Source: Candidatus Omnitrophota bacterium
GTDB lineage: Bacteria; Omnitrophota; Gorgyraeia; Gygaellales; Profunditerraquicolaceae
Length of the DNA: 40,794 bases
NCBI GenBank assembly: GCA_026387315.1
Contig: JAPLLY010000001.1
Span: 1 to 40,794, forward strand
Direction: 5' to 3'
The stretch's first letter is position 1. Every line of letters starts with the position of its first letter. Shown piece by piece: positions 20,550 to 37,873 of this stretch. The position numbers and the translations under genes are program-made. Under the pieces are notes generated by a model. It did not search any database. It was not told the origin of the DNA and saw only the letters and a list, made by a program, of their open reading frames with translations.

Positions 20550-20930
20550 ATGCCCACAATTTCTCAGTTAATCAGATTCGGCAGGATTTCCAAGAAAAAG
20601 AAAAGTAAGTCTCCGGCTTTAAAAGCTTGCCCTCAGAGAAGAGGTGTATGCCTCCAGGTGCGTACGATGACACCTAAAAAACCAAACTCAGCTTTGAGAA
20701 AAATTGCCAGGGTCAGGTTGACTACGGGTTTAGAAGTTACGGCTTATATTCCCGGAGAGGGGCATAATCTTCAGGAACACTCAATTGTTTTAGTCAGGGG
20801 TGGCAGGGTTAAAGATTTGCCGGGTGTGCGTTATCATATTGTGAGAGGCTCATTAGATGCTTCAGGGGTTAATGCCCGTAGAAGAAGCCGTTCTAAATAT
20901 GGAGCTAAAAGGCCAAAGGAAGGGAAATAA
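20550..20930 (+). CDS. rpsL: 30S ribosomal protein S12
   Basis: Decoding-centre protein. The 126-residue product carries the two universally conserved loops: [11 protein letters not shown] and [12 protein letters not shown], with lysines at the positions that give streptomycin sensitivity. Short spacing from rpoC continues the rpoBC-str operon. A GGGGACGGTTCT repeat separates it from rpsG. Confidence 0.98.
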
Positions 20931-20939
20931 TAAGAATCA

Positions 20940-21014
20940 TGGGGACGGTTCTATTTTTCCCGAAAAACAAGGGGACGGTTCTGTTTTTTCTAAAAGAAAA
21001 ACAGAACCGTCCCC
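20940..21014. repeat. GGGGACGGTTCT palindromic repeat between rpsL and rpsG (family P1)
   Basis: Half-site 20941-20957 plus a full hairpin 20971-21014 (GGGGACGGTTCTGTTTTT against AAAAACAGAACCGTCCCC). The repeat starts within about 10 nt of the rpsL stop and is followed by a clean GGGAG Shine-Dalgarno for rpsG. Confidence 0.8.
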
Positions 21015-21049
21015 TGGATTCTAAAGTTAAATAAAGGGAGTGTCGAAAG

Positions 21050-23727: not shown

Positions 23728-24930
23728 ATGGCTAAAGAGAAATTTGTAAGGAGTAAACCGCACGTAAATATTGGAACCATTGGGCATATTGATCATGGTA
23801 AAACCACGCTTACTGCTGCCATTTGTAATGTTTTATCAAAACTCGGTCAAGCTACAGCCAGGGATTACGCGGATATTGCTAAAGGTGGTACGGTTAGAGA
23901 CGAAACAAAAGTGGTTACGATTTCCGTTGCGCATGTTGAATATGAAACAGGCGCGCGTCACTACGCGCATATAGATTGCCCTGGCCACGCCGATTACATT
24001 AAGAATATGATCACTGGTGCCGCTCAAATGGACGGAGCAATTTTGGTAGTTTCCGCTGCTGACGGCCCGATGCCTCAAACCAGAGAGCATATTCTTCTGG
24101 CGCGTCAGGTGAACGTACCAAGTATGGTTGTATTTATGAATAAGGTGGATTTGGTGGATGATAAAGAGCTCCTGGATTTAGTGGAGATGGAAATCAGGGA
24201 ACTTTTAACTAAGTATGGATACCCGGGAGACAAGACGCCGATTATCCGCGGCAGTGCTAATAAAGCTTATAAGGCAACCGATGCCAATGGAGCGGATGCT
24301 AAGTGTATTATGGATTTAATGAAAGCCGTTGATGAGTTTATTCCGCTTCCTCCCAGAGAGCTGGATAAGACTTTACTGATGGCGGTTGAAGATGTCTTTA
24401 GTATTGAAGGCAGGGGTACGGTGGCTACCGGAAGAATTGAACGGGGTAAGGTAAAAGTGGGAGAAGAAGTTGAAATTATCGGTTTAAGGCCGGAAGCCAA
24501 GAAATCCGTAGTTACCGGAATTGAAATGTTTCGTAAACTGTTGGATGAAGGCCAGGCTGGAGACAATGTCGGCCTGCTCTTAAGAGGCGTGGAAAAGAAT
24601 GATATCGAGCGCGGAATGGTTATTGCCGCGCCTAAATCTATTCTACCGCATACGAAATTTAAGGCCCAAGTGTATATTTTGACTAAAGAAGAAGGCGGCA
24701 GGCACACTCCATTTTTTAAAGGTTATCGGCCGCAGTTCTATTTTCGTACCACTGACGTTACCGGCGCGGCTACTCTTCCTACGGGCGTAGAAATGGTTAT
24801 GCCTGGTGATAATGTGTCTTTGGAAGTGGAGTTGATTACTCCGATTGCCATCGAGAAAGAATCTCGTTTTGCTATTCGTGAAGGCGGCCATACCGTGGGC
24901 GCGGGAGTAGTTACTGAGGTTATTGCCTAA
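23728..24930 (+). CDS. tuf: Elongation factor Tu
   Basis: Delivers aminoacyl-tRNA to the ribosome. The ATG at 23728, 7-8 nt after AGGAGG, gives [20 protein letters not shown] and 400 residues; the in-frame upstream start would add unconserved residues. P-loop GHIDHGKT (19-26), [13 protein letters not shown], and domain 2/3 motifs ([26 protein letters not shown]) are intact. It closes the str operon and is followed by a tandem palindromic leader before rpsJ. Confidence 0.99.
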
Positions 24931-24933
24931 TAG

Positions 24934-25111
24934 ATGAACCCCGCACCTTCTGGATATTCAAGGTATAATTAAATAAGGTGCGGAGACAGAGAATAATAAA
25001 GGGTTTAAAGAATTAAATAAGGAGAAGGTGCAAAAGGGGTGAACCCCGCACCTTCTTACCATTCAAGTATTAAAGAATTATAGTTTAAATAAAAGGAGAA
25101 GGTGCGGGGTG
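24934..25111 (+). promoter_or_regulatory. Tandem palindromic leader of rpsJ (family P2) with two micro-ORFs
   Basis: Two copies of the element in tandem. Copy 1 has 5' arm CCCCGCACCTTC (24939-24950) with partial 3' arms AAGGTGCGG (24975-24983) and GAAGGTGC-aaaa-GGGGT. Copy 2 has a perfect 14-nt pair: ACCCCGCACCTTCT (25043-25056) and AGAAGGTGCGGGGT (25097-25110). The second arm contains the SD-like AAGGTG and GT of the rpsJ GTG start. Each 5' arm lies in a short ORF: ATG at 24934 encodes MNPAPSGYSRYN, GTG at 25039 encodes [14 protein letters not shown]. Confidence 0.65.
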
Positions 25112-25414
25112 AATACGCAAAAGATTCGGATTAAATTAAAAGCCTATGATCACCGGTTACTAGATCAGGCAGTAATTGAAATTGTGGAAACCGTTAAGCG
25201 CACCGGGGCCAAGATTTCCGGCCCCGTACCGCTTCCCACAAAAAGGGAAATTTACACGGTATTACGTTCTCCGCATGTTGATAAAAAATCGCGGGAACAG
25301 TTTGATTTATCTACCCATAAGCGCCTTATTGACATCTTTGAACCTACAGCTAAGACCATCGATTCATTAAGGAAATTAAACCTGCCCGCGGGAGTGGACG
25401 TAGAGATCAAGTAA
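25109..25414 (+). CDS. rpsJ: 30S ribosomal protein S10
   Basis: 30S head protein and, with NusB, part of antitermination complexes. 101 residues with [43 protein letters not shown] (split over residues 39-65) and a C-terminal PAGVDVEIK. The GTG start lies inside the 3' arm of a perfect inverted repeat. First gene of the S10 cluster, next to tuf as in many bacteria. Confidence 0.98.
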
Positions 25415-25436
25415 CAAATCAAATCGGATAAATTAA

Positions 25437-26057
25437 ATGATTGGACTGATTGGGAAAAAAATTGGAATGACTCAAGTATTTGCCCCAGACAATAGCCAGT
25501 TAGGGGTTACTGCTATTGTAGCCGGGCCCTGTCCGATTCTGATGGTTATGGATAAGAATATTCAATTAGGATTTGATGCCGTCAAAGAAAAAAGTTTAAA
25601 GAAAGCGCAGTTGGGGCTTTATAAGAAATTAAATATTACTCCCCGCAAGGTAATTAAGGACCTCTCCAAAGAGGCCAATGTTGAATATAAGGTAGGCGAT
25701 GAGCTTAAGGTTGACCTTTTTTGCGAAGGTGATTTCGTAGATGTAAGCGGAATTTCTATTGGCAAGGGGTTTGCCGGCGGTATGAAGCGCTGGCATTGGA
25801 AGGGCGGGCCCCGGACGCACGGTTCAACTTCGCATCGTAGAGTCGGCTCCATTGGTTCCAGCACTACTCCCGGAAGAGTTTTTAGGGGGCATCATATGCC
25901 AGGGCATATGGGCGCGAAAAACGCGACTGTACAAAATTTAAAAATTATTAAGGTGGATTTAGCCAATAACCTCCTGTTGGTTGAAGGAGGGGTTCCCGGG
26001 CATAAGAATGGTTACTTAGTGGTTACTAAAGCCATCAAGAAAAGAGTTAAGAAATAA
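25437..26057 (+). CDS. rplC: 50S ribosomal protein L3
   Basis: Early-assembly protein whose loop reaches the peptidyl transferase centre. 206 residues beginning [15 protein letters not shown] and containing the signature [20 protein letters not shown] and a [12 protein letters not shown] segment. Next gene rplD begins one nt after the stop. Confidence 0.98.
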
Positions 26058-26058
26058 T

Positions 26059-26706
26059 ATGTTCACTTTACCTGTGTATAATAGTGAAGGCAAAGAAGTT
26101 GATACGCTAAAACTTAACCCCGCGATTTTTGATGGCAGTCAGAATCTTGATTGCCTTCACCAGGCGGTTATTGGTTATCAGGCTAATCAGAGAAAAGGGT
26201 TAGCTTCGACTAAGACGCGGGGTGAGGTTTCCGGAGGCGGCAAGAAGCCCTGGAAACAGAAGGGGACTGGCCGAGCGCGCGTAGGGAGCACCCGTTCTCC
26301 TCTTTGGAGGCATGGTGGTGTAGTTTTTGGGCCTCACCCACGTGATTTCTCTTATGAGGTTCCCCAGAAGATCAAGGCGCTGGCTTTAAAAACAAGTTTA
26401 AATGTTAAATTAAATGAAAATAATTTTATTATTTTAGATGAATTTAATCTCGCCGCGCCTAAGACTAAACAAGCAGTAGAAGTGTTTTCTAATCTGAAAT
26501 TATTTTCTGCTAAAGATAAAAAACCAAAGAAAGTTTTATTTCTGACGCATAAATTAGGCGCGCAATTAAAGAGAGCTTTAAAAAATATAAGTTTCTTGAC
26601 TGTAAATTTAGCTTCTGATTGCCACGCTTACCAGGTAATGCAGAATCAAAAATTGCTGATTAGTAAAGCCGGTTTAGCTCTTCTGACGCAAAGGCTAAAG
26701 CCATGA
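26059..26706 (+). CDS. rplD: 50S ribosomal protein L4
   Basis: Lines the exit tunnel and in E. coli autoregulates the S10 operon. 215 residues with the tunnel-loop region KTRGEVSGGGKKPWKQKGTG and RARVGSTRSPLWRHGG. The E. coli type S10 leader hairpin cannot be recognised upstream; instead the operon begins with P2 palindromes. The 3' end overlaps rplW by 4 nt (ATGA). Confidence 0.97.
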   Translation: MFTLPVYNSEGKEVDTLKLNPAIFDGSQNLDCLHQAVIGYQANQRKGLASTKTRGEVSGGGKKPWKQKGTGRARVGSTRSPLWRHGGVVFGPHPRDFSYEVPQKIKALALKTSLNVKLNENNFIILDEFNLAAPKTKQAVEVFSNLKLFSAKDKKPKKVLFLTHKLGAQLKRALKNISFLTVNLASDCHAYQVMQNQKLLISKAGLALLTQRLKP

Positions 26707-26987
26707 GCCAGATCGCGCTGATCATCAAAGCCTTATTACAGACGGAAAAATCCAGCAGCTATTTAGCGGAGGGTAAATATCTTTTTTTAGTAAATAATGC
26801 TGCTAATAAAATTCAGATTAAACGGGCAGTCCAGCAGGCTTATAAAGTAAAGGTAAAGAATGTTAATACTTTTATTTCCAGGGGAAAACTTAAAAGAGTC
26901 AGGCATCAATTAGGCCGTACAGTGGATACTAAAAAGGCGGTAGTTACTTTAGCCGCCGGTCAAAAAATAAGTGAGGCCACAACTTAG
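26703..26987 (+). CDS. rplW: 50S ribosomal protein L23
   Basis: Tunnel-exit protein that docks trigger factor and SRP. 94 residues with LQTEKSSSYLAEGKYLFLV and KVKNVNTFISRGKLKRVR. ATGA overlap with rplD indicates coupled translation. Its stop codon TAG falls inside the hairpin of the following composite repeat (AACTTAGC). Confidence 0.95.
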   Translation: MSQIALIIKALLQTEKSSSYLAEGKYLFLVNNAANKIQIKRAVQQAYKVKVKNVNTFISRGKLKRVRHQLGRTVDTKKAVVTLAAGQKISEATT

Positions 26988-27078
26988 CGAGCGATAGCGA
27001 AGCTAAGTTGTTTGGCCGAACTTATCCCGCACCAATTGAAGCGCAGCTTAAAGCTAAATATACAATTGGTGCGGGATT
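26975..27078 (+). promoter_or_regulatory. Composite palindromic element upstream of rplB (family P5, copy 1)
   Basis: Module 1 is a hairpin: GGCCA-CAACTTAGC (26975-26988) with GCTAAGTTG-tt-TGGCC (27002-27017). Module 2 starts CGAACTTATCCC and forms CCCGCACCAATTG...CAATTGGTGCGGG with an AGCTTAAAGCT core. A second copy precedes rpsK (38519-38623); module 2 is nearly identical there while module 1 differs by compensatory pairs. The rest of the gap (27079-27134) has no Shine-Dalgarno that I can point to with confidence. Confidence 0.7.
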
Positions 27079-27134
27079 AATTCGCGCATTAATTTACTCA
27101 CACTGCGTGTTCGTAAGTTAAGCGCTCATTAAAG

Positions 27135-27971
27135 ATGGGTATTATTAAATTTAAACCTACAACACCTAGCCGCAGGCATATGAGCGGGCCGGATTTTAAA
27201 GAGATTACTAAACACAAGCCTGAACGTTCATTGCTGCTTCCGCTTAAAAAAACGGGCGGAAGGAACGCGTATGGCCGTATAACTACCAGGCATATTGGCG
27301 GCGGGCATAAGCGCATGTTACGGATAATTGATTTTAAACGTAACCTACTTGATCAGCCGGCAAAGGTTATCGGTATTGAATATGATCCTAACCGTTCTGC
27401 CAGGATTGCTTTGGTGGAATATCCGGACAAAGAGAAGCGGTATATTATTGCTCCCTTAGGTCTTAACGCCGGAGATACTATTATTGCCAGTAATCAAAAA
27501 GAAATCGAAATTAAGCAGGGTAATTGCCTGCTGTTACGCAACATTCCTTCCGGAACTCTGATTCATAATATTGAATTATCCATGGGTAAAGGCGGCCAGA
27601 TCGTCCGTGGCGCGGGAACCAGCGCTCAGATTATGGCCAAAGAAGGAGATTTGGCGCATGTTAGATTACCTTCCGGAGAGGTAAGATTAGTAAGTTTAGA
27701 TTGTCATGCGACCATTGGCCAGATCGGTAATGTTGATCATGACGCGATTGTTCTAGGTAAAGCCGGAAAAAGCCGCTGGTTAGGGATTAAGCCTTCAGTT
27801 AGAGGCGTAGTGATGAATCCTTTTGACCATCCGCACGGTGGAGGTGAAGGTAAAAGTGGGCAGGGTAATCCGCATCCGGTTACTCCTTGGGGGAAACCCA
27901 CTAAAGGATATCGCACGAGGAATCGTAAAAAGTACTCAAATAAGTTTATTGTCAAAAGAAGGAAGCCATAA
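27135..27971 (+). CDS. rplB: 50S ribosomal protein L2
   Basis: Highly conserved protein near the peptidyl transferase centre. 278 residues, with [19 protein letters not shown], and the C-terminal signature [18 protein letters not shown]. The ATG at 27135 follows an AT-rich stretch with AAAG. The 3' end is two nt before rpsS. Confidence 0.98.
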
Positions 27972-27973
27972 TT

Positions 27974-28261
27974 ATGCCACGCTCACTGAAAAAAGGCCCA
28001 TACGTAGAGGAGAGTTTATTAAAGAAGATTCAAAAACAGACTAAAGCCGGGTTACGCCAGGCAATTAAAACCTGGAGCCGGCGCTCAACGATTATTCCGG
28101 ATTTTGTGGGTTTAACTTTCGCGGTGCATGATGGTAAAAAGCATATCCCGGTTTTTGTTACCGAGAATATGGTCGGGCATAAATTAGGGGAGTTTGCTCC
28201 TTCCAGGATTTTTAGGAAACACGGCGGTATTAAGGCTAAGAAGGGGTTGGAGAAGACTTAA
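27974..28261 (+). CDS. rpsS: 30S ribosomal protein S19
   Basis: 30S head protein that contacts S13 and 23S rRNA bridges. 95 residues starting [19 protein letters not shown], with the signature [12 protein letters not shown]. The stop codon TAA overlaps the rplV ATG (TAATG). Confidence 0.98.
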
Positions 28262-28593
28262 TGATAGCCAAGGCTGAAGGAAAATTTTTAAGGATTTCAC
28301 CGAGTAAAGTGCGCTTAGTATTAGATCTTATTCGCGGCAAGGATGCCGCCGTCGCGCAAAGCATTTTGCTGCATTTGAATAAAAGGCCAAAAGAATATCT
28401 GATAAAAATATTAAAATCCGCGATTGCTAATGCCAAGGTCAAGGGTTTCGCGGCGGATAAATTGTATGTTTCTAAGGCCCTTTGTAACCCCGGCCCGATG
28501 TGGAAAAGATTTAAGGCCGCGGCTTTTGGCAGGGCTTCGTCTATCGTTAAACGTACCGTACATATTAAGTTAGAGTTGGATTTAAAATCATAA
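28261..28593 (+). CDS. rplV: 50S ribosomal protein L22
   Basis: Exit-tunnel protein with a long beta-hairpin. 110 residues: FLRISPSKVRLVLDLIRG at the N-terminus and the hairpin segment GPMWKRFKAAAFGRASSI. Translationally coupled to rpsS by TAATG. The 140-nt gap after it is filled by two P3 repeats. Confidence 0.97.
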   Translation: MIAKAEGKFLRISPSKVRLVLDLIRGKDAAVAQSILLHLNKRPKEYLIKILKSAIANAKVKGFAADKLYVSKALCNPGPMWKRFKAAAFGRASSIVKRTVHIKLELDLKS

Positions 28594-28600
28594 AGTAATG

Positions 28601-28733
28601 TTCCCCCTCGCGGGAGCTCGGGGTCATTTTTCCCCAAGCGCCGGAGGCAGGGGAAAAACTCTCCCCCTCGCGGGAGCTCGGGGTCATTTTTCCCCAAGCG
28701 CCGGAGGCAGGGGAAAAATGAGGAGCATAATTT
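28601..28733. repeat. Tandem 60-bp P3 repeats upstream of rpsC, ending in an SD
   Basis: Two nearly identical units with a 60-bp period (starting 28602 and 28662), each CCCCCTCGCGGGAGCTCGGG followed by a TTTTTCCCC...GGGGAAAAA hairpin. After the second unit comes TGAGGAGC, the Shine-Dalgarno of rpsC. The layout copies that in front of yajC (1773-1838), including the GAGGAG. Confidence 0.8.
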
Positions 28734-29435
28734 ATGGGGCATAAGGTAAGTCCTTTATTGTTACGGATTGGTTTTATTAGGCAGTGGCACTCACGTTGGT
28801 TTGCTAAGCCTAAAGATTTCCCTCTGTTTATTCAACAGGATTATAAGATTAGAAAATTTATTAAGAATAAATTTAAGCAAGCCGCGATTTCCAAAATCGT
28901 TATCGAGAGATTGGGTGAAAGAATTAAAATTCGTATTTTTTCCGCGCGTCCGGGAATCATCATCGGCCGGCACGGTTCAGATATCGAGCGGCTGCGCTCA
29001 GACTTAAATGGCTTAGTGAAGAATGAGCTCTCTATTGATATTCAGGAGATAAATAATCCTACTTGGGACGCGCAGTTGGTTGCCGAGAATATTGCTTTGC
29101 AGCAGGAAAAGAGAATTGCTTTTCGGCGGGCCGTAAAAAGAGCGATGGAACAATCTATCCAGTCCGGGGTAAAAGGTATCCGAGTTAGTTGTTCCGGCCG
29201 TCTTAATGGCGCGGAAATGGGGCGTAAAGAAACTTATAAAATGGGTAAGGTTCCTTTACAAACTTTGCGCGCGGATATTGATTATGGTTTTGCCGAAGCC
29301 CTGACCACCTATGGTTTAATCGGAGTTAAGGTTTGGATTTATAAGGGCGATATTTTGGGAAAACAATTTATACAGGAAGAGACTAAAAGCGCGGGCCAGC
29401 AGTTTAAAGAACGGCCTGCGGGACATCCGCGTTAA
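28734..29435 (+). CDS. rpsC: 30S ribosomal protein S3
   Basis: mRNA-entry-site protein with helicase activity together with S4 and S5. 233 residues: MGHKVSPLLLRIG, KH-domain GRHGSDIERLR, and the C-terminal domain with GVKGIRVSCSGRLNGAEMGR. Its Shine-Dalgarno is at the edge of the upstream repeat. Confidence 0.98.
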   Translation: MGHKVSPLLLRIGFIRQWHSRWFAKPKDFPLFIQQDYKIRKFIKNKFKQAAISKIVIERLGERIKIRIFSARPGIIIGRHGSDIERLRSDLNGLVKNELSIDIQEINNPTWDAQLVAENIALQQEKRIAFRRAVKRAMEQSIQSGVKGIRVSCSGRLNGAEMGRKETYKMGKVPLQTLRADIDYGFAEALTTYGLIGVKVWIYKGDILGKQFIQEETKSAGQQFKERPAGHPR

Positions 29436-29456
29436 CTTCGAACTTGAGGTGTTTGA

Positions 29457-29873
29457 ATGGCTTTAATGCCTAAAAGGGTTAAATATCGTAAATTGCAGAA
29501 AGGCCAGAGGCGCGGGATAGCCACTAGCGGCTCAACTGTTTCTTTTGGAGAATTTGGTTTAAAATGTTTGGAGAACGGATGGATTAAAAACACGCAGATT
29601 GAAGCTGTGCGCGTTATTTTAGCGCGCCAACTGCATAAGGGTGGAAAATTATGGATCAGAATTTTCCCGGATAAATCGATAACCAAGAAACCGGCTGAAG
29701 TACGTATGGGTAAAGGTAAGGGGGATCTTGATCATTGGGTTTGCGTAATCAAAAGAGGGCGTGTGCTTTTTGAATTAGGGGGAGTTCCCCAGGAATATGC
29801 CAAGGCCTGTTTTCGTCTGGCAGCCTATAAAATACCGCTGCGCACTAAATTTGTAACCCGGGTGCATAAATAA
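29457..29873 (+). CDS. rplP: 50S ribosomal protein L16
   Basis: Contacts A-site tRNA and is needed for peptidyl transfer. 138 residues beginning [20 protein letters not shown], with [18 protein letters not shown]. It is separated from rpmC by a P2 palindromic leader that starts two nt after its stop. Confidence 0.98.
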
Positions 29874-29874
29874 G

Positions 29875-30005
29875 ATGAACCCCGCACCTTCTAATTATTC
29901 ATCATTTTTTAAAACATAAATATTTAAAGGCATGAGTATAAGCAGAATACTGAATCCCGCACCTTTAATAAGGTGCGGGATGAATACGAAAGAAGGTGCG
30001 GGGTG
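29875..30005 (+). promoter_or_regulatory. Nested palindromic leader of rpmC (family P2) with a micro-ORF
   Basis: Outer perfect 14-nt arms ACCCCGCACCTTCT (29879-29892) and AGAAGGTGCGGGGT (29991-30004); the second runs into the rpmC GTG at 30003. Nested inside is ATCCCGCACCTT-taat-AAGGTGCGGGAT (29954-29981). Inner and outer arms can exchange partners. The 5' arm is in a micro-ORF, ATG at 29875, [14 protein letters not shown]. Confidence 0.65.
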
Positions 30006-30263
30006 AAGCCGCTTGAGCTAAGAAATTTATCTAAAGATGAGTTGTTAGAGAAAGAAAAAGGGCTGTATGCTGAATTAGCCAAGTTAAATACACAGCGTTA
30101 TACTGGTAGTGTAGAGAAGCCGCATAAGTTCGCGCTGGTCAAAAGGGATATCGCGCGGATTAGGACAATCTTAAACCCCGTTAGAGGCAGGACGCCAGAG
30201 GCGTCCGACGGTTGCCTTCGGCAACCTGCCTCTAACGGGGTAAACCAAAAGAAAGATAAATAA
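30003..30263 (+). CDS. rpmC: 50S ribosomal protein L29 with repeat-derived C-terminal tail
   Basis: Tunnel-exit protein near L23. The GTG at 30003 gives MKPLELRNLSKDELLEKEKG, the normal L29 N-terminus; an upstream in-frame GTG at 29973 lies in the palindrome and adds unconserved residues. L29 homology ends at ARIRTIL (about residue 57), close to the usual 60-70 residues. The remaining 29 residues (NPVRGRTPEASDGCLRQPAS then NGVNQKKDK) come from a three-way-junction palindrome (30175-30241). The total is 86 residues. Confidence 0.93.
   Translation: MKPLELRNLSKDELLEKEKGLYAELAKLNTQRYTGSVEKPHKFALVKRDIARIRTILNPVRGRTPEASDGCLRQPASNGVNQKKDK
30175..30241. repeat. Three-way-junction palindrome inside the rpmC 3' end (family P6)
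   Basis: Outer arms ACCCCGTTAGAGGCAGG (30175-30191) and CCTGCCTCTAACGGGGT (30225-30241) are perfect 17-nt complements. Inside are two 7-bp hairpins: GGACGCC-aga-GGCGTCC (30190-30206) and GGTTGCC-ttc-GGCAACC (30210-30226). The stop codon lies after it, so the repeat is translated. Confidence 0.8.
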
Positions 30264-30264
30264 G

Positions 30265-30546
30265 ATGGGTAAGCAAAAAGAATTTACGGGGGTAGTGATT
30301 AGCGATAAAATGCAGAAAACCGTAGTGGTAAAAACCATGCATTTAACCCGGCATGCTAAATATTCTAAAACGGTTAAGCTTTATAATAAATTTAAGGCGC
30401 ATGATGAGAAGGGGATGGCTAAACTTGGGGATACGGTAAGCATCGTGGAAACACGCCCTTTGTCTAAGGATAAACATTTTATCGTTAAAAAGGTACTTAA
30501 AAAGGCTCAAAGCTTGCAGGCCGCTAATCCTGAGGAGATTGTATAA
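30265..30546 (+). CDS. rpsQ: 30S ribosomal protein S17
   Basis: Primary 16S rRNA-binding protein of the 30S body. 93 residues with FTGVVISDKMQKTVVVKT, a HLTRHAKYSKTVKLYNKF segment and GDTVSIVETRPLSKDKHF. The ATG is one nt after the rpmC stop. Confidence 0.97.
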   Translation: MGKQKEFTGVVISDKMQKTVVVKTMHLTRHAKYSKTVKLYNKFKAHDEKGMAKLGDTVSIVETRPLSKDKHFIVKKVLKKAQSLQAANPEEIV

Positions 30547-30915
30547 ATGCTGCAATTGCGTAGTATTTTAGATGTCGCGGATAATACTGGAGCCCGCAGA
30601 GCTTCGTTAATCTGCGTATTAGGTAAAATGGGCAGTTTTAATGCCGATATCGGAAATGTTGTGAGGGTTAATATCAAGGAGTCTATCCCGGGCGCAACGG
30701 TGAAAAAGGGCGAGATGGCCCGGGGAGTAGTTGTGCGCACCAGACATGATATCAGAAGAGCGGACGGTTCTGTATTGCGTTTTGACCGCAATGCCATAGT
30801 GATTATTGACGAGAAAGATAATCCCAGAGGTACGCGTGTATTCGGGCCGGTTGCCCGTGAGTTAAGGGATAAGAATTTTAGCAAAATAATTTCTTTAGCG
30901 CCTGAGGTAATTTAA
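30547..30915 (+). CDS. rplN: 50S ribosomal protein L14
   Basis: Subunit-interface protein contacting 16S rRNA. 122 residues with [20 protein letters not shown] and the C-terminal [20 protein letters not shown], full family length. Stop codon overlaps the rplX ATG. Confidence 0.98.
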
Positions 30916-31226
30916 TGCAGAAAATCAAGAAGAACGATATTGTTCAGATAACCAAAGGTAAGGATAAAGGAAAGCATGGCAAGGTTATTAGGATTATTGA
31001 AGATGGAGCTAGAGCGATAGTCGAAGGCCTGAATTTATCCAAGAAACACAAGCGTCAGAGCCGCCAGGATCAGAAAGGCGGGATAATTTCAATTGAGATG
31101 CCGCTTAGTATCTCTAATCTTATGATTTTCTGTAAACATTGTTCAAAACCTTCCCGCGTAGGATCAATGATATTAAAAGACGGGACAAAGGCTAGATTTT
31201 GTAAGGCTTGCAAAGAGGCGCTATAA
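30915..31226 (+). CDS. rplX: 50S ribosomal protein L24 with C-terminal zinc knuckles
   Basis: Assembly initiator protein of the large subunit. 103 residues with a KOW domain (KKNDIVQITKGKDKGKHGKV). The C-terminal part carries two CxxC knuckles (CKHC about residue 75 and CKAC near residue 98), a zinc-ribbon form present in some lineages but missing in E. coli. Start overlaps rplN (TAATG). Confidence 0.96.
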   Translation: MQKIKKNDIVQITKGKDKGKHGKVIRIIEDGARAIVEGLNLSKKHKRQSRQDQKGGIISIEMPLSISNLMIFCKHCSKPSRVGSMILKDGTKARFCKACKEAL

Positions 31227-31227
31227 T

Positions 31228-31791
31228 ATGGTACCCAGACAGTTAGAAAAATATCGCAATGAAATTGTTCCTAAACTCATGGCTGATTTTAAACTAAAAA
31301 ATAAAATGGCTGTTCCCGTGGTTGATAAAATTGTGGTGAATATGGGTATTGGTGAGGGTGCTCAGGATGTCAAGATGTTGGAGAAATCGGTTGAGGAGTT
31401 GGGGAGTATCACCGGACAGAAACCCCTTATTCGCCGGGCAAAAAAAGCGATTGCTAATTTTAAAGTTAGGCAAGGCCAGGCGGTGGGCGCTAAGGTTACT
31501 TTAAGAAGAGCGATGATGTATGAGTTTATGGACCGCTTACTGAATATTGCCTTACCCCGTATCCGTGATTTTCGCGGTGTTTCCCGGGATTCTTTTGATC
31601 AGGGCAACAATTATACTCTGGGCTTAAGTGAGCAGATTATTTTTCCGGAGATTGAATACGACAGAATTACCCGTACTCAGGGTATGGATATTACTTTTGT
31701 AATTAAAAATGCCAAGAATGCTGATCAGTCAAGGGCTTTGTTAAAATATTTTGGAATGCCTTTTAAAGAAAAAGAAAAGGACGAAAAATAA
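31228..31791 (+). CDS. rplE: 50S ribosomal protein L5
   Basis: 5S rRNA-binding protein of the central protuberance. 187 residues: VPVVDKIVVNMGIGEGAQD, TGQKPLIRRAKKAIANFKVR, and LPRIRDFRGVSRDSFD, the family signatures. The ATG is one nt after rplX. Confidence 0.98.
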   Translation: MVPRQLEKYRNEIVPKLMADFKLKNKMAVPVVDKIVVNMGIGEGAQDVKMLEKSVEELGSITGQKPLIRRAKKAIANFKVRQGQAVGAKVTLRRAMMYEFMDRLLNIALPRIRDFRGVSRDSFDQGNNYTLGLSEQIIFPEIEYDRITRTQGMDITFVIKNAKNADQSRALLKYFGMPFKEKEKDEK

Positions 31792-31794
31792 AAA

Positions 31795-31980
31795 ATGGCC
31801 AAGAATTCGCAGATTGCAAGATGGAAGAGGGCGCCGAAGTTTTCTACCCGCAAATATAACCGTTGTTCAATTTGCGGCAGAAGCGGGGGGTATTTAAGAA
31901 GATTTCAACTTTGTCGTATTTGTTTTAGGGAGCTGGTTTGGCAGGGGCTTATCCCTGGCGTTAAGAAGGCCAGCTGGTGA
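31795..31980 (+). CDS. rpsN: 30S ribosomal protein S14, zinc-binding (type Z)
   Basis: 30S head protein. 61 residues with [20 protein letters not shown], the four-cysteine zinc site of the short type, and end [11 protein letters not shown]. The upstream rplE gene ends three nt before. A repeat follows the stop. Confidence 0.98.
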
Positions 31981-31986
31981 AAATAA

Positions 31987-32085
31987 CGGGGACGGTTCTA
32001 TTTTTCCCCGGGTTTAATTCTAGAAAAACAGAACCGTCCCCTTGTTTTTCGGCTTCGATTCGCTGAATCAATGGCGGATTCATTA
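31987..32085. repeat. GGGGACGGTTCT repeat and ATTC hairpins upstream of rpsH (family P1 plus other)
   Basis: GGGGACGGTTCTATTTTT (31988-32005) and AAAAACAGAACCGTCCCC (32024-32041) form a hairpin with one mismatch. Then GATTC-gct-GAATC and TGAATC...GATTCA are overlapping small stems (about 32055-32083) that cannot form at the same time. CTGAATCAATGGCGG here is the complement of CCGCCATTGATTCAG at 39676-39690 before rpoA. AGGAG follows for rpsH. Confidence 0.7.
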
Positions 32086-32100
32086 AATTAGGAGAATCAA

Positions 32101-32496
32101 ATGTCTAGGACAGATTTGATTGCCGATGTTTTTACGATTATTCGTAATGCTATTAAGATTAAAAAAGATACCGTGGACCTTCCGGCTTCCGGTAACATAA
32201 AATCAATCATGGCCATTCTTAAAAAGAATGAATATATTGATAATTTTAAACTGATTGAAGATAAAAAACAGGGAGTAGTCAGGGTTTATTTAAAATATAT
32301 CGCGGGTAAATCCGCGATTCGTAATATTAAGCGAATTTCTAAGCCTGGTTTGAGGGTTTATGTCAGAGGGAAAAAGGTTCCTACGGTTTTACGCGGCAGG
32401 GGACTAGCGATTATTTCTACTTCTAAGGGTGTAATTACCGATAAAGAAGCCAGAGAATTAGGCGTGGGTGGCGAAGTTATTGGTTATATTTGGTAA
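32101..32496 (+). CDS. rpsH: 30S ribosomal protein S8
   Basis: Primary 16S rRNA-binding protein and, in E. coli, repressor of the spc operon. 131 residues with DLIADVFTIIRNAIK and C-terminal GLAIISTSKGVITDKEAREL. AGGAG precedes the ATG. Confidence 0.98.
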   Translation: MSRTDLIADVFTIIRNAIKIKKDTVDLPASGNIKSIMAILKKNEYIDNFKLIEDKKQGVVRVYLKYIAGKSAIRNIKRISKPGLRVYVRGKKVPTVLRGRGLAIISTSKGVITDKEARELGVGGEVIGYIW

Positions 32497-32523
32497 GCGA
32501 TAGATTTAAATGGGAGCAAATTA

Positions 32524-33069
32524 ATGTCTAGGATTGGAAAGAAACTAGTAGCGATACCTAAAGATGTGAAAATTGAAGTTAAGGATGGTATCGTATGGGT
32601 AGAGGGGCCAAAAGGGAAGCTTACGCGTAAACTATCCGACCGGATCAGTATAGAGATTAAAGACGGCCAGCTTTTGGTAAAAAGAGCAGCTGATACTAAG
32701 ATTGATAAATCCCTGCATGGATTGTTTCGCGCGCTTATTGTAAATATGATTGTGGGGGTAACCCAGGGGTATCTTAAGGAATTGGAGATTATCGGGGTAG
32801 GATTTAAGGCAGCGGTAGCCGGGGATAAATTGAATATGGCTTTAGGATTTTCGCATCCGGTAAATTACGTAATTCCCGCGGGTATTAAAATCGAAACTCC
32901 TAAGCCGACCCAGCTAATAATCAAGGGAATTGATAAAGAGTTGATTGGAAAAGTAGCAACTGAGATTCGCGCGTATTATCCTCCTGAACCTTACAAAGGC
33001 AAAGGGATCCGTTTTGTAGGAGAGCAGGTAAAGAAGAAGATAGGAAAGGCGCAAGCAACCGGTAAATAA
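32524..33069 (+). CDS. rplF: 50S ribosomal protein L6
   Basis: Binds 23S rRNA near the sarcin-ricin loop. 181 residues with SRIGKKLVAIPKDVKIE and the C-terminal signature PPEPYKGKGIRF. Preceded by GGGAGC. A degenerate repeat half-site and a long palindrome follow. Confidence 0.98.
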   Translation: MSRIGKKLVAIPKDVKIEVKDGIVWVEGPKGKLTRKLSDRISIEIKDGQLLVKRAADTKIDKSLHGLFRALIVNMIVGVTQGYLKELEIIGVGFKAAVAGDKLNMALGFSHPVNYVIPAGIKIETPKPTQLIIKGIDKELIGKVATEIRAYYPPEPYKGKGIRFVGEQVKKKIGKAQATGK

Positions 33070-33101
33070 GGGAATGGTTCTATTTTTCCTTGATTTACCT
33101 G

Positions 33102-33147
33102 TGTAGACCTACGCGGTCTACATATATGTAGACCGCGTAGGTCTACA
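33102..33147. repeat. 46-nt perfect palindrome upstream of rplR
   Basis: Left arm TGTAGACCTACGCGGTCTAC plus AT, a central AT, and its exact complement on the right. Each arm is itself a small hairpin (GTAGACC...GGTCTAC), so the DNA could form a cruciform and the RNA either one long stem or two short ones. A degenerate GGTTCTATTTTT half-site (33075-33089) lies to its left. Confidence 0.8.
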
Positions 33148-33168
33148 TGGGTCGCGAGATTTTAAGAA

Positions 33169-33183
33169 AGAAGGTGCGGGGTG
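33169..33183 (+). promoter_or_regulatory. Solo P2 3' arm acting as ribosome-binding site and start of rplR
   Basis: AGAAGGTGCGGGGT (33169-33182) is identical to the P2 3' arm at rpsJ, rpmC and rplO and runs into the GTG start, but no matching ACCCCGCACCTTCT arm occurs anywhere in the rplF-rplR gap. This is the only copy of the start cassette here without a local partner. Confidence 0.65.
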
Positions 33184-33540
33184 AGAAAAAAGGAAGAGTT
33201 AAGGCTAAAGAGGCATAAAAGAATAAAGATGAGGATGCTGGGCACTCAAGAGAAGCCGCGCTTGGTTGTGCACCGCTCCTTAAAGAATATTTCGGCGCAG
33301 GTATTAGATGACACCGTGGGCAAAGTTTTATTTTCTCTTTCTACTAAAGATAAGGCAATAAAGCAAAAGTTTACCAGCGCGGGAAATCTTAAATCAGCGG
33401 TACTTTTTGGTGAATTATTCGCTAAAGAAGCCAAGGAAAAAGGTGTAAGCAAAATAATTTTTGACCGAGCGGGATATCTTTACCACGGCAGGATTAAATC
33501 TTTTGCCGAGGCATTAAGAAAAGGTGGAATGGAGTTTTAA
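33181..33540 (+). CDS. rplR: 50S ribosomal protein L18
   Basis: Binds 5S rRNA with L5 in the central protuberance. 119 residues with GTQEKPRLVVHRSLKNISAQ, and ending DRAGYLYHGRIKSFAEALRK. The GTG start forms the end of the AGAAGGTGCGGG cassette. Confidence 0.97.
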   Translation: MRKKEELRLKRHKRIKMRMLGTQEKPRLVVHRSLKNISAQVLDDTVGKVLFSLSTKDKAIKQKFTSAGNLKSAVLFGELFAKEAKEKGVSKIIFDRAGYLYHGRIKSFAEALRKGGMEF

Positions 33541-33556
33541 TTTGGAGGCTTAAGTA

Positions 33557-34009
33557 ATGCGTGAATTAAACATTGGGCAGCAATCAGATTTAATTGAAAA
33601 AGTTATCAGTATAAATCGCGTTACCAAGGTAACTAAGGGCGGGAAGAAATTACACTTTAGCGCTTTGGTGGTTGTCGGTGATACTCGGGGCAGGGTAGGT
33701 TTTGCCCTGGATAAAGCTAATGAAGTTGCTGAAGCTATTCGTAAATCTTTAACTAAGGCCAAGAAAAGCCTGTTTAAGATTCCTTTGGAGGGCTCGACTA
33801 TTCCTCACGAAATAATCGGTAAATTTGGAGCGGCGCAGGTTTTGCTTAAGCCGGCAAGCGAAGGTACGGGCGTTATCGCGGCAGGCCCGGTGCGCGCAAT
33901 CTGTGAAGCCGCCGGGATTAAAGATATACTTACTAAATGTTTAAAATCAAATAATCCGATTAACGTGATTAAGGCTACGATGCAGGGCCTAATGAATCTT
34001 AAGGCATAA
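33557..34009 (+). CDS. rpsE: 30S ribosomal protein S5
   Basis: mRNA-entry protein important for fidelity. 150 residues (E. coli 166; the N-terminus is shorter here). [33 protein letters not shown] and the spectinomycin-loop region are visible. ATG follows TTGGAGG. Its stop codon TAA overlaps the first base of the P2 palindrome before rplO. rpmD (L30), usually next, is missing. Confidence 0.97.
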
Positions 34010-34087
34010 CCCCGCACCTTCTTGGTATTCATAGATTAAGAAGCGTGGGGGTTAAATAATAGTAAATAAGGAAGAAGGTGCGGGGTG
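34009..34087 (+). promoter_or_regulatory. Palindromic leader of rplO (family P2), spanning stop to start
   Basis: Perfect 15-nt arms: ACCCCGCACCTTCTT (34009-34023) and AAGAAGGTGCGGGGT (34072-34086). The first base of the 5' arm is the last base of the rpsE stop codon and the last two bases of the 3' arm are GT of the rplO GTG start. The element fills the whole gap. The frame of the 5' arm reads NPAPSWYS then stop, but lacks a start codon here. Confidence 0.7.
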
Positions 34088-34693
34088 GAAGAGAAGAAAC
34101 CTAAAATAAAACACAAAGCCAAAGAATCCTTAATCAGGAAGGTTTCCGCCGCAGGTGGATCCGCCTCCGGCGGAAAAAAACCAGCAGCTAAGAAGGGTAT
34201 TAAAAGGGCAGCCTATAAGCGGATTCAGGAGAAAATTCCGGTAAGTTTGGTTTCTTTGCATAATCTTAAATCGCCATTTGGTTCGCGTAAGAAAAGAAAA
34301 CTCTTGGGCCGCGGTTCCAGTTCCGGGCATGGTAAGACTTCTACCCGGGGAAGTAAGGGGCAGACCTCCCGTGCCGGCCGGCATTTTTATTTAGGTTTTG
34401 AAGGAGGACAGTCTCCGCTGATCCGTAGAATGCCCAAGCGCGGATTTGTAAGTAATTTTAAGAAAGTTTATCAGATTGTCAATCTTGGCGATCTGAATTC
34501 AATTAAAGAAACTACTATTACTCCTCTTCTTTTAAAAGCAAATGGATTAATCCGTGATCAGTCTGCCTTAATTAAAATATTGGGAAATGGTTCGATTAAG
34601 AACGCGGTGGTTATTCAGGCGCACGCGTTTTCAAAACGCGCGTCTGTGGGAATTGCCAGTGCCGGCGGAAAAGTAGAGATTATTCAGACATAG
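34085..34693 (+). CDS. rplO: 50S ribosomal protein L15 with N-terminal extension
   Basis: Large-subunit assembly protein. Classic L15 homology begins at SLHNLKSPFGSRKKRKLLGR (about residue 56), where L15 usually starts at residue 1-2, and continues through GHGKTSTRGSKGQ and RRMPKRGF. Some 55 basic residues precede it, partly encoded by a palindrome (34143-34176, KVSAAGGSASGGKK). The GTG start is in the P2 cassette. No strong alternative start with a Shine-Dalgarno is seen closer to the L15 core. Total 202 residues. Confidence 0.93.
   Translation: MEEKKPKIKHKAKESLIRKVSAAGGSASGGKKPAAKKGIKRAAYKRIQEKIPVSLVSLHNLKSPFGSRKKRKLLGRGSSSGHGKTSTRGSKGQTSRAGRHFYLGFEGGQSPLIRRMPKRGFVSNFKKVYQIVNLGDLNSIKETTITPLLLKANGLIRDQSALIKILGNGSIKNAVVIQAHAFSKRASVGIASAGGKVEIIQT
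34143..34176. repeat. Palindrome inside the rplO 5' coding region
   Basis: TTTCCGCCGCAGGTGG (34143-34158) and CCGCCTCCGGCGGAAA (34161-34176) pair with one mismatch and one G-T wobble around a central GGATCC. It is translated as part of the atypical L15 extension (SAAGGSASGG). Confidence 0.65.
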
Positions 34694-34720
34694 ATCCATA
34701 GATCCCTCGCTTAACCACTT

Positions 34721-34782
34721 GTACTTTTCTTTAAAAAAGTACTGCGTAAGCTCGGGATAAATTCGCCCCGCCAACGGCGGGG
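34721..34782 (+). promoter_or_regulatory. Hairpin pair upstream of secY
   Basis: GTACTTTT/AAAAGTAC (34721-34742) and CCCCGCC-aac-GGCGGGG (34766-34782) precede the secY ATG at 34791. Between them is GGGATAAATTCG (34754-34765), the reverse complement, with one mismatch, of the CGAACTTATCCC linker found before rplB, rpsK and rpoA. No good Shine-Dalgarno is apparent besides GGCGGGG in the stem. Confidence 0.5.
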
Positions 34783-34790
34783 CTCATTTA

Positions 34791-36137
34791 ATGTTTAATG
34801 CGCTGGCTAATGTTTTTAAGATTCCGGATTTAAAAAGGCGATTAATTATTACCGGCGCCCTGATTGCGGTTTATCGCGTAGGTTGCTATATCCCTACCCC
34901 CGGCATTGATGGGGCGGCCTTGGCGGATTTTTTCAATCGTATTGCTAAAACTCAAGGTGGTACGCTCTTTGGCATAATTAACATGTTTTCCGGTGGCGCT
35001 ATGGAACGCTTAACCATCTTTGCTCTGGGTATAATGCCCTATATCTCATCCTCGATTATCATGCAGTTACTCACGGCAGTTATACCGGCTTTTGAAAAAA
35101 TGGCCAAAGAGGGTAAATCCGGATACGAGAAGATTAACCAAATTACGCGTTACGGGACAGTTTTACTTTCGGTTGTGCAATCCTATTTTATCGCGCTTTG
35201 GCTTGAAAATCCGGCGCGTTTTGAGGGGCTGCAGATTGTCATGCATCCGGGGTGGGGATTTCGGACCTTAACGGTTTTAACGCTGACTACCGGAACGATC
35301 TTTATTATGTGGCTGGGTGAGCAGATTCAGGAGCGGGGTATCGGTAACGGTATTTCTTTGGTAATTACCGCCGGTATTATTTCGCGGATTCCCACAGCGT
35401 TTAATCAGCTTTTTGTTTTAATTTCACCTTTTGCCGCCAGCCGCAGGCAGATTCAGCCGGTTACCTTATTAATTATGGCTGTCTTTTTAGTGGGCGTAGT
35501 TTTCTCGGTAATTTTGATTACGCAGGGAGTAAGAAAAATACCTGTGCAATATGCCCGGCGCATCGTGGGGCGTAAGATTTATGGCGGCCAAAGCACTTAT
35601 ATCCCGCTTAAGGTTGATACCTCCGGAGTTATCGCCATTATCTTTGCCCAGTCAATTATTTTGTTTCCGGCAACTTTGGCATCTTTTATTCCTAATCCGG
35701 GTTTTCAACGTTTTGCTCAGAGTTTAATCCGGGGACAGGTTCTTTATTCGGTAGTCTACGCTCTTTTGATAATTTTCTTCTGTTATTTTTATACGGCTAT
35801 TGTTTTTAATCCGAATGATTTAGCGGAAAATATGAAGAAGTACGGGGGCTTTATTCCCGGGATTCGGCCCGGGGCGCACACGGCGGAATTTCTGGATTTT
35901 GTAATGACCAGGATTACTTTGGCCGGCGCGAGTTTTATTGCCGTGATTGCTATTTTTCCGGATTTTATTATGGCTTGGTTAAAGGTACCATATCTGGTGG
36001 CTTCATTTTTCGGAGGTACCGGGGTTTTGATTATTGTGGGCGTGATGCTGGATACTTTAAAACAGATTGAATCGCATTTGTTGACACACCATTATGAAGG
36101 TTTTATCAAAAGCGGCCAGATTAGGGGGAGAAGATAA
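34791..36137 (+). CDS. secY: Preprotein translocase subunit SecY
   Basis: Channel-forming subunit of the Sec translocon. 448 residues, with about ten hydrophobic helices. Signatures: GTLFGIINMFSGGAMERLTI, PYISSSIIMQLL, EQIQERGIGNGISLVI, and the cytosolic ARRIVGRKIYGGQSTYIPLK loop. Stop overlaps the adk ATG (TAATG). Its gene follows rplO as in most spc operons. Confidence 0.98.
   Translation: MFNALANVFKIPDLKRRLIITGALIAVYRVGCYIPTPGIDGAALADFFNRIAKTQGGTLFGIINMFSGGAMERLTIFALGIMPYISSSIIMQLLTAVIPAFEKMAKEGKSGYEKINQITRYGTVLLSVVQSYFIALWLENPARFEGLQIVMHPGWGFRTLTVLTLTTGTIFIMWLGEQIQERGIGNGISLVITAGIISRIPTAFNQLFVLISPFAASRRQIQPVTLLIMAVFLVGVVFSVILITQGVRKIPVQYARRIVGRKIYGGQSTYIPLKVDTSGVIAIIFAQSIILFPATLASFIPNPGFQRFAQSLIRGQVLYSVVYALLIIFFCYFYTAIVFNPNDLAENMKKYGGFIPGIRPGAHTAEFLDFVMTRITLAGASFIAVIAIFPDFIMAWLKVPYLVASFFGGTGVLIIVGVMLDTLKQIESHLLTHHYEGFIKSGQIRGRR
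36081..36109 (+). promoter_or_regulatory. Possible internal promoter in secY 3' end, upstream of adk
   Basis: TTGACA (36081-36086), 17 nt, TATCAA (36104-36109). The -10 matches 4 of 6 consensus bases. It lies 28 nt before the adk ATG. Because the segment codes for conserved SecY C-terminal residues (LLTHHYEGF), chance is quite possible. Confidence 0.3.
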
Positions 36138-36790
36138 TGTATTTGGTGCTTTTAGGCCCTCCGGGGGCAGGTAAGGGAACCCAGGCAAAAAGGCTGGCAG
36201 AAAAATTAGGGCTGCCGCATATCTCAACCGGGGATATCTTAAGGCAGAATGTTTTGCTGGATACGGATTTGGGCAGACAGGCCAAAGATATTATGGAACA
36301 AGGACTATTGGTGCCGGATGATTTAGTCGCCAAAATGCTTGATGGGCGTTTCAATAATCCGGATATAAAAAAAGGTTTTATTTTAGATGGTTATCCCAGG
36401 ACCTTGTCTCAGGCCTATTCTTTAGATGAAATTTTGGCGTCCAAGGGCTTAGCTGTGGACTTGGTTGTTTATTTGGACAGCAGTGACCAGGTAATTATCA
36501 AGCGGCTTACGGGAAGATTAACCTGTTCTAAGTGCGGAGCAAATTTTCATACCATTAACATGCCCCCTAAAGTAAAAGGCTTATGCGATAGCTGCCAGGG
36601 GCCCTTGTATCAGCGTTCAGATGATGTTGAAATAACGGTGTGTAAACGCCTGGAAGTTTATAAACAACAAGTTACTTCTTTGATAGAGTATTATAAAAAA
36701 GCAAAAAAACTACATAGCTTGAACGCGGATTTAGGAGCCCAAGTGGTTTTGAATCAAATTATTGAGTTACTGGTAAGCGTCAAAGCTTAA
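36137..36790 (+). CDS. adk: Adenylate kinase, zinc-LID type
   Basis: Catalyses ATP + AMP = 2 ADP. 217 residues: P-loop GPPGAGKGT (7-15), AMP-binding STGDILRQ, DGYPRT, and a LID domain with four cysteines C130, C133, C150 and C153, the zinc-stabilised form. Coupled to secY by TAATG; map starts directly after its stop. Confidence 0.97.
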   Translation: MYLVLLGPPGAGKGTQAKRLAEKLGLPHISTGDILRQNVLLDTDLGRQAKDIMEQGLLVPDDLVAKMLDGRFNNPDIKKGFILDGYPRTLSQAYSLDEILASKGLAVDLVVYLDSSDQVIIKRLTGRLTCSKCGANFHTINMPPKVKGLCDSCQGPLYQRSDDVEITVCKRLEVYKQQVTSLIEYYKKAKKLHSLNADLGAQVVLNQIIELLVSVKA

Positions 36791-37461
36791 ATGATTCCCC
36801 TGAAGTCGCCAAAAGATTTAATAATGCTTAAGCGCTCAGGAGTAATTTTGGCTTCTGTTATGCAAAAATTGCAAGCTAGCCTGCGGCCAGGAATGACCAC
36901 TCTGGAGATTGATCTTTTGAGTGAAGAGTTAATTCGCAAGGAGAAGGCGTTGGCAGCTTTTAAGGGCTATAAAGGTTTTCCGGGGACAGTTTGTGTTTCC
37001 GTAAACGAAGAGATTGTTCATGGTATCCCCGGTTCAAGAGTAATTTTAGAAGGGGATATCGTAAGCCTGGCTTTAGGTATAAATTACGAGGGTTTTTTTT
37101 CGGATATGGCAGTGACTTTACCGGTGGGTAAAGTAGAAGCCGATAGATTAAAGTTAATTGCCGCAGCCAAGCAGTCTTTAGATATCGGAATTAAACAGGC
37201 GCAAGTTGGAAATTATTTAACTGATATTTCTCATAGCATTCAAAGTTTTGTAGAGGCAGAGGGTTTTTCAGTAGTCCGGCAGTTTGTGGGGCATGGTATT
37301 GGAACGGCGCTATTGAGCCAATGATTAATCTTGGTAGTTGGGAGTGCAAGATTATTGAAAATAACTGGACAGCGGTGACGGCGGATGGCTCACCCTCAGC
37401 GCATTTTGAACACACGGTAGCGGTCACGGATAAGGGGCCGGTAATTTTGACTAAGGTATAG
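36791..37461 (+). pseudogene. map: Methionine aminopeptidase, frameshifted and missing an active-site segment
   Basis: Type I MetAP removes the initiator methionine. The first frame (to 37324, 177 residues) matches well up to GHGIG (H168), then stops after TALLSQ. The C-terminal part continues in another frame from 37309: [32 protein letters not shown], stop at 37461. About 26 residues normally between GHGIG and IEPM are missing, with loss of frame. Separately, the first metal-ligand Asp (E. coli D97) is Ala94 in GDIVSLALG. D105 and H77 remain. Two independent lesions suggest real decay, though an assembly error cannot be excluded for the frameshift. Confidence 0.85.
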
Positions 37462-37465
37462 GTAA

Positions 37466-37565
37466 ACCCCGCTCCCCGTGCTAAAGCACGGGGCTTTGGG
37501 GAAAACATAACTACACTAACCTTACATCCCCGCTCTAAAGAGCGGGGCTTTACGGGGAGCGGGGT
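37466..37565 (+). promoter_or_regulatory. Three-way-junction leader of infA (family P6)
   Basis: Outer arms ACCCCGCTCCCCGT (37466-37479) and ACGGGGAGCGGGGT (37552-37565) are perfect 14-nt complements. Inside are CCCCGTG-ctaaag-CACGGGG (37474-37493) and CCCCGCT-ctaaag-AGCGGGG (37529-37547), both with CTAAAG loops. The 3' arm contains GGGGAG, the likely Shine-Dalgarno of infA, and ends two nt before the ATG. Confidence 0.7.
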
Positions 37566-37567
37566 AA

Positions 37568-37786
37568 ATGCCCAAAGAAGAATTAATTGAGACAGAAGGA
37601 AAAATTATTGAAGCGCTGCCTAATGCCATGTTTAAGGTTCAACTTGAAAATGGGCATGTAGTGTTGGCGCATGTTTCAGGAAAGATGCGCATGAATTTTA
37701 TCAGGATTATTCCGGGTGATAAGGTTAAATTAGAACTTTCTCCTTATGATCTAAGCCGGGGGAGAATTACTTTTCGGGTGAGATAG
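37568..37786 (+). CDS. infA: Translation initiation factor IF-1
   Basis: OB-fold factor that blocks the A site during initiation. 72 residues, the exact family length: [40 protein letters not shown], ending [13 protein letters not shown]. Ribosome binding would have to use GGGGAGCGGGG, buried in the 3' arm of the leader element. Confidence 0.98.
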
Positions 37787-37799
37787 AATGGAAAATAAA

Positions 37800-37873
37800 G
37801 GGGACGGTTCTGTTTTTTATATATAAAAAACAGAACCGTCCCCTGGATTCTAAAGAAAAACAGAACCGTCCCC
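37800..37873. repeat. GGGGACGGTTCT palindromic repeat after infA (family P1)
   Basis: Full hairpin 37800-37842 (GGGGACGGTTCTGTTTTTT against its complement across TATATA) and an extra reverse half-site ACAGAACCGTCCCC (37860-37873). The segment CTGGATTCTAA following each 3' arm also occurs after copies at 10305 and 21015, so it belongs to the repeat. Confidence 0.8.

Follow-up and report, generated by a model that had tools for sequence, protein, structure and literature searches.

The window analysed here, a stretch of 40,794 nucleotides from the 1.80 Mb genome of a Candidatus Omnitrophota bacterium, raises the question of why micro-ORFs with a common beginning stand before several ribosomal protein genes and overlap there the 5' arm of a palindrome. 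The original prediction described four of them, at 24934 (ATG, MNPAPSGYSRYN followed by a stop), 25039 (GTG), 29875 and 37899 (GTG), and all four are present as described, with frames open past the 5' arm. The genes downstream of the palindromes are indeed rpsJ, rpmC, rplO and rpmJ, encoding S10, L29, L15 and L36 (the last identified from its sequence), and the rplO copy has the frame NPAPSWYS without a start codon. As judged from sequence, the micro-ORFs are the left half of a larger inserted element and their starts are displaced native gene starts. The DNA encoding NPAPS is one terminal repeat of this element and the "start-burying" 3' arm is the other; the suspicion that the shared beginning reflects only the DNA arm was right for these residues. 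It is highly probable that the micro-ORFs are the upstream half of a MITE-like family of palindromic elements which occupies start codons and would be "transparent" to translation by coupling a stop to a restart.

Insertions at the ribosomal protein gene starts

The elements, micro-ORFs and genes of the window whose coordinates follow in this section lie on the + strand. In about 22 congeners rpsJ carries no element and starts with ATGAATACGCAAAAG or a close variant, a few bases past the tuf stop or past an ordinary spacer, and the step from this empty site to the occupied one can be written as ATGAATACG becoming ATGAA, element, TGAATACG. The tuf-rpsJ junction of the window holds two elements in tandem and reads TAATAGATGAA, element 1, TGAA, element 2, TGAATACGCAAAAG. 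Element 1 (24939-25039), recognised by its terminal repeats and by TGAA on both sides, has a degenerate right end, GAAGGTGCaaaagGGG; to its left the ancestral rpsJ ATG (24934-24936) now opens micro-ORF 1 (24934-24972), as the window sequence and the congeners indicate. Element 2 (25044-25109) lies in the GTGAA end of element 1, between TGAA copies at 25040-25043 and 25110-25113, and its final G opens the GTG of rpsJ (25109-25414; Pfam PF00338, E=1.1e-38), the start of which was changed from ATG to GTG by the insertion. Micro-ORF 2 (25039-25083; window sequence and frame survey) begins with GTG. The right terminal repeat, GAAGGTGCGGGGTG (25098-25111), is the putative ribosome-binding site with start codon; the predicted fold joins it in a stem to the left terminal repeat.

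The gene rpmC begins directly with ATGAAG or ATGAAA in relatives without the element. In the window its ancestral start opens a micro-ORF (29875-29919), and a frameshifted element of the 92-nt subfamily (29880-30003, TGAA at 29876-29879 and 30004-30007) supplies the GTG of rpmC (30003-30263), as the identification of the downstream gene and the relatives indicate. Nested in this element is a mini-palindrome of 26 bp, TCCCGCACCTTTAATAAGGTGCGGGA (29955-29980), which amounts to a 30-bp in-frame insertion when its TGAA duplication is counted. Such a miniature, made of the two element ends alone, also moves: it sits in a TGAA of the copy at locus L018, and locus L048 is the empty site. The rplR start retains only the right end of an element (33158-33181), the left part having been lost to other palindromic insertions, and complete copies with a TGAG duplication occupy the same start at loci L220 and L221. 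A palindrome, GTAGACCTACGCGGTCTACATATATGTAGACCGCGTAGGTCTAC, is found nested in or beside elements at 33105-33147 of the window and near 2560-2600 of locus L040.

The rplO element (34010-34085), assigned by sequence comparison, has ATAA as its left flank and no start codon there; its empty-site relation in relatives was seen in part. The rpmJ element (37904-37975) belongs to a 70-nt subfamily, as comparison with relatives indicates, and was received by the right end of an earlier element (37881-37899); its last base, A, gives the rpmJ ATG, and its micro-ORF (37899-37952; window sequence and frame survey) starts with GTG. The rplA element (11345-11451) carries a mini-palindrome at its left end, finishes on the A of the rplA ATG and has a related copy upstream of a 226-aa ORF at locus L093. 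Elements are found at rpmC, rplR and rpmJ in the genomes G000, G014 and G021, and other relatives have clean ATGA starts at these genes; G014 and G021 carry elements at the same gene starts, with a TGAG duplication where rplR starts with ATGAGA. The empty sites and flank duplications imply that the micro-ORFs at 24934 and 29875 begin with the former start codons of rpsJ and rpmC, and the insertion into an earlier element implies that the micro-ORF starts at 25039 and 37899 are GTG starts made by that earlier element.

On both sides of each copy stands a duplicated 4-bp target, in most cases TGAA. When the left and right flanks of 137 copies are compared position by position, identity is found in 26 copies, then in 118, 114, 126 and 130, then in 23, so the duplication is sharply 4 bp wide. 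The flanking tetranucleotides are identical in 106 of the 137 copies, compared with at most 86 in 10,000 shuffles, and where the right tetranucleotide is unusual, that is, other than TGAA, it is matched on the left in 20 of 26 cases (TGAG, TAAA, TTGA, TGGA, TTAA, TTTA, TGAT, TGCG). These comparisons demonstrate, on the level of the sequence, that a palindromic element inserted within NTGA(A) at the gene start, duplicating 4 bp and splitting the start region.

A dispersed family and its position in the genome

The element, CCCCGCACCTTC...GAAGGTGCGGGG, is mostly 64-101 nt long and is present in about 50-60 copies in the source genome. Its terminal arms recur far beyond chance: AACCCCGCACCTTC with at most one mismatch has 95 matches in 1.8 Mb and the exact arm CCCGCACCTT has 133 (65 + 68), compared with 0 for the reversed control pattern in both cases. 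Beyond the window, copies were studied within stretches of sequence surrounding such matches. Being short and dispersed, with terminal inverted repeats, a 4-bp target site duplication and empty sites, the element has the marks of a MITE. Strict pairs of its ends occur in 15 of 58 related genomes, with 1 to 28 per genome, a patchy distribution that fits mobility. The named matches are Omnitrophota in all cases but one (L134, "bacterium"); the search that gave them required GGGGTGA at the right end, so this copy set is biased toward start codons, and the sets from G014 and from the source genome itself are free of that bias. Rfam covariance models gave no match in positions 24000-40794 of the window, the sole match being an FMN riboswitch elsewhere in locus L015.

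A mobilising enzyme was sought among DDE_Tnp_1 and Y1_Tnp transposases. The genome has no DDE_Tnp_1 gene and eight Y1_Tnp genes, and no element ends were found near the eight loci at close match. The Y1_Tnp loci were set aside as full-length autonomous copies of the element, for they carry the GGGGACGGTTC repeat and not its ends. Two other candidates for a full-length autonomous element were likewise dismissed: the arm pair at locus L044, 3.8 kb apart, encloses only housekeeping genes, and the same is true of locus L025.

Several other repeats were noticed. A second family of palindromes, GGGGACGGTTCTGTTTTT...AAAAACAGAACCGTCCCC, is located at ordinary places between genes of the window (9191-9286, 10219-10314, 20929-21024, 31980-32052 and 37792-37883), and a complete inverted pair of it lies near two of the eight Y1_Tnp loci (L246 and L247), within the stretch examined. 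Two palindromes that are 85% identical and share CCCGCACC (CTTATCCCGCACCAATTG...CAATTGGTGCGGGATTAA) lie off start codons upstream of two ribosomal protein operon genes (27004-27092 and 38550-38638). A third repeat, CTCGGGGTCATTTTTCCCCAAGCGCCGGAGGC (1772-1843 and 28600-28731, once in tandem), ends just before the gene starts at 1844 and 28734 (ATGAGGAGCATAAT). An unrelated repeat, CCCGTTCGACTTCGCTCAGGGTCATCCTGAGC...GTGTCGAAGG, is found in the rpmC start codon of G016 (L208) and G006 (L209) with an apparent ATGA duplication; start-codon residence may hence extend beyond one family.

The right ends of 116 of the 137 copies open an ORF of at least 50 codons (GTG 102, ATG 13, TTG 1), and no copy of the 137 has a gene start at both ends. 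Among the right ends without such an ORF, several belong to the 37-codon rpmJ or are inner ends of nested copies. When loci of G014 were picked by the arm pattern alone, with no reference to the flanks, 20 of 20 were at gene starts. The exceptions that were looked at are also close to gene starts. In tmk (L031 and L032) codon 4 holds the element, flanked by a TAAA duplication, and the terminal repeat in L032 contains an in-frame GTG at which the gene can be restarted; the element in def (L034) brings its own ATG, and the one in L027 lies just upstream of the gene start (both gene names were read from the translated N terminus). The tmk copies, near 2500-2640 of the two loci and in one of them tandem, form a 62-nt subfamily with its own internal GGAGG. 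One copy, near 1500 of locus L061, lies between divergent genes, and reading frames are opened by both of its ends. The downstream genes that were tested are unrelated housekeeping genes such as pgsA, xerD, murE, aroK, nadD and rpiB, not all of which score above curated cut-offs.

Translation through the element

The arrangement of the copies points to a mechanism by which such insertions could be borne. In the sequence, the left side keeps the old start codon with its ribosome-binding site, from which a frame leads into the element, and the last base of the right end together with the duplicated TG forms the new GTG or ATG of the gene. In intact copies the frame from the old start spans the element and closes with a TGA that shares bases with the new start. 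A ribosome entering there would translate through the element, melting the hairpin in which the new SD and start are buried, would terminate at the GTGA overlap and would restart on the gene with AAGGTG and GTG in place. Such stop-restart translation would make the insertion tolerable even in essential genes; the peptide would be incidental, and the selected property would be a stop-free frame of the right length.

The right end of the element does provide an SD-like AAGGTG and the G of the new GTG start. In the predicted fold, the left arm forms a stem with the SD and start on the right at -32 to -58 kcal/mol (z -2.9 to -8.7), in agreement with the original prediction that the 5' arm buries them. 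The canonical anti-SD, CACCTCC at the real 16S 3' end of congener G012, contains a CACCT to which AGGTG is complementary. An altered anti-SD matching GAAGGTG was considered and rejected, since the TGGATCACCTTCTTT matches in G014 and G010 are not 16S. As a separate observation, the 16S helix 45 region (L232 190, G012) is GGAAGGTGCGGCTGGATCACCTCC, of which GAAGGTGCGG is the same as 10 nt of the right terminal repeat, either by chance or through origin or mimicry.

An in-register NTG is present at the left of 98 copies, and 54 of these read the whole element to the TGA at +1 of the gene start, the GTGA overlap, with typical products MNPAPSKYSIVKVIWFNELNKKEGAG in the 71-nt class and MSPAPSNYSSFFKALRFKGISMSRILNTKEGVG in the 92-nt class, each followed by the stop. 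None of the 98 has a stop between -16 and 0. In the other 44, all in-register copies of the window among them, the frame closes 17-71 nt short of the gene, so full coupling can be dispensed with; these copies still pass the left arm, and partial opening of the hairpin may therefore be possible. The window copies are shortened or frameshifted relatives of the full-frame copies, which is why only 12-17 codons are visible from the window alone.

The comparison of synonymous with nonsynonymous change, suggested with the original prediction, was made on 28 distinct 71-nt copies (232 pairs, which are not independent, so that the figures are ratios and not P values). The synonymous ratio was 1.02 and the nonsynonymous 1.07, both at the neutral rate, and this rules out conserved-peptide coding. 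Changes to stop amounted to 0.17 of expectation in the micro-ORF frame; the mirror frame of the opposite strand gave 0.21, and the remaining four frames 0.79-2.04. Fifty copies with unrelated interiors have lengths that split 31:11:8 by remainder modulo 3. In the 31 interiors of coupling length there are 19 stops where 58.3 are expected (none of 400 shuffles fell as low) and, in the mirror frame, 16 against 35, whereas the 19 interiors of the other length classes contain 46 against 39.6. The neutral ratios, together with a stop depletion limited to the coupling length, indicate that it is a stop-free passage of the required length, and not a peptide, that the elements have preserved. The avoidance of stops in the micro-ORF frame across the family also means that translation through the arm probably matters; the idea that a ribosome on the micro-ORF opens the arm is upheld to this extent, without the regulatory leader role attached to it. 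The mirror-frame depletion suggests that the element was used in both orientations while spreading. Related interiors have the same orientation relative to the gene in 254 pairs and the opposite in 3 (L152 flipped). Selection on settled sense-orientation copies alone would not be expected to deplete the mirror frame, and the depletion may reflect a history as a mobile unit.

One would argue that an ordinary MITE lands at TGAA-like sites anywhere and survives only at start codons in dense operons, its terminal repeat happening to serve as a ribosome-binding site, its micro-ORF being a by-product and its openness going back to a few master copies. The gaps between operon genes are indeed no longer than a few bases, the terminal repeat makes a passable SD, half of the copies lack a fully open frame, and the different repeat at the rpmC start in G006 and G016 implies that start positions may simply be tolerant. 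However, the window offers 56 TGAA or TTCA sites between genes, and of its 46 genes only 5 have an NTGAA start; landing at random between genes would thus seldom produce the start-codon pattern, yet nearly all copies are at starts. The palindrome family GGGGACGGTTC at ordinary intergenic positions implies that other places tolerate insertions, and master copies fit poorly with a stop depletion that runs across 31 unrelated interiors in the coupling length class only. We therefore consider such a survivor bias unlikely.

The erm-like control to which the original prediction likened the micro-ORFs, or an attenuator-type control, in which the micro-peptide or ribosome stalling would sense something and control a regulon, draws on the short ORF that overlaps an SD-burying hairpin, but it has become very improbable: no amino acids are conserved beyond the DNA terminal repeat, the genes downstream bear no relation to one another, the frame of intact copies extends to the gene start, and congeners do without the element at the same genes. 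Least credible of all is a -1 slippage on GGGG before the TGA that would fuse the micro-ORF to the gene product. On GCG GGG TGA the Gly tRNA can re-pair exactly, and the gene lies in the -1 frame, but the copies ending in GGGATG (13 of 116) break the slippery run and the early-stop copies could not use it.

We thus favour passage by stop and restart. Whether the element also seeks its positions is a more tentative matter: it is conceivable, though short of an even chance, that it actively targets translation starts as a mobile element transparent to translation in both orientations, with ends that are ribosome-binding sites, a duplication that rebuilds start and stop, and a body free of stops in the coupling and mirror frames. 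The stop-restart bridge of the duplicated target would show how DNA can enter the start codons of ribosomal protein and other essential genes without loss. Sites that are empty, singly occupied, tandem or nested form natural series for the study of translational coupling and of what uORFs cost bacteria. Gene callers applied to such genomes will put starts in the wrong place or report spurious MNPAPS micro-genes.

Relation to known systems

The element resembles bacterial MITEs (RUP, NEMIS/Correia, ERIC, Nezha and others) in its small size, terminal inverted repeats, target duplication, hairpin RNA and lack of a transposase gene. We know of no bacterial MITE that sits systematically in start codons and remakes the ribosome-binding site and start, and a literature search for start-codon MITEs returned nothing relevant. 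For an insertion element that resides in start codons and is transparent to translation there is no close precedent in the literature searched.

The small palindromes and the eight Y1_Tnp genes of the genome recall the REP/RAYT system. REP elements have GTAG or CGTC as a tetranucleotide at one of their ends and are found mainly downstream of genes, and their ends can give a TAG stop to neighbouring ORFs (PMC3733652). The Omnitrophota element differs in its variable 4-bp duplication and start-codon position and has no GTAG or CGTC foot. The Rickettsia palindromic elements are short protein-coding palindromes with an open frame that are tolerated in housekeeping genes (PMC10969869), and they share with our element the short palindromic repeat with an open frame in coding space of such genes. 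However, they lie in frame inside an ORF as part of the protein and their peptides are reported as conserved, whereas the Omnitrophota element sits at the start codon and its peptide is not conserved. Element and duplication together amount to 77 nt in the main class, and the frame closes at a TGA that overlaps the new gene start, so the element is neither in the frame of the gene nor fused to the host protein.

With erm-type leader peptides the element shares a micro-ORF overlapping an SD-sequestering hairpin, but here the micro-ORF has no conserved peptide, stands at many unrelated genes and was born by insertion. The introner elements of eukaryotes are also mobile and insert in genes, where a duplicated target keeps expression unharmed. 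Introners, however, are spliced out, whereas in the Omnitrophota element translation itself would stop and restart.
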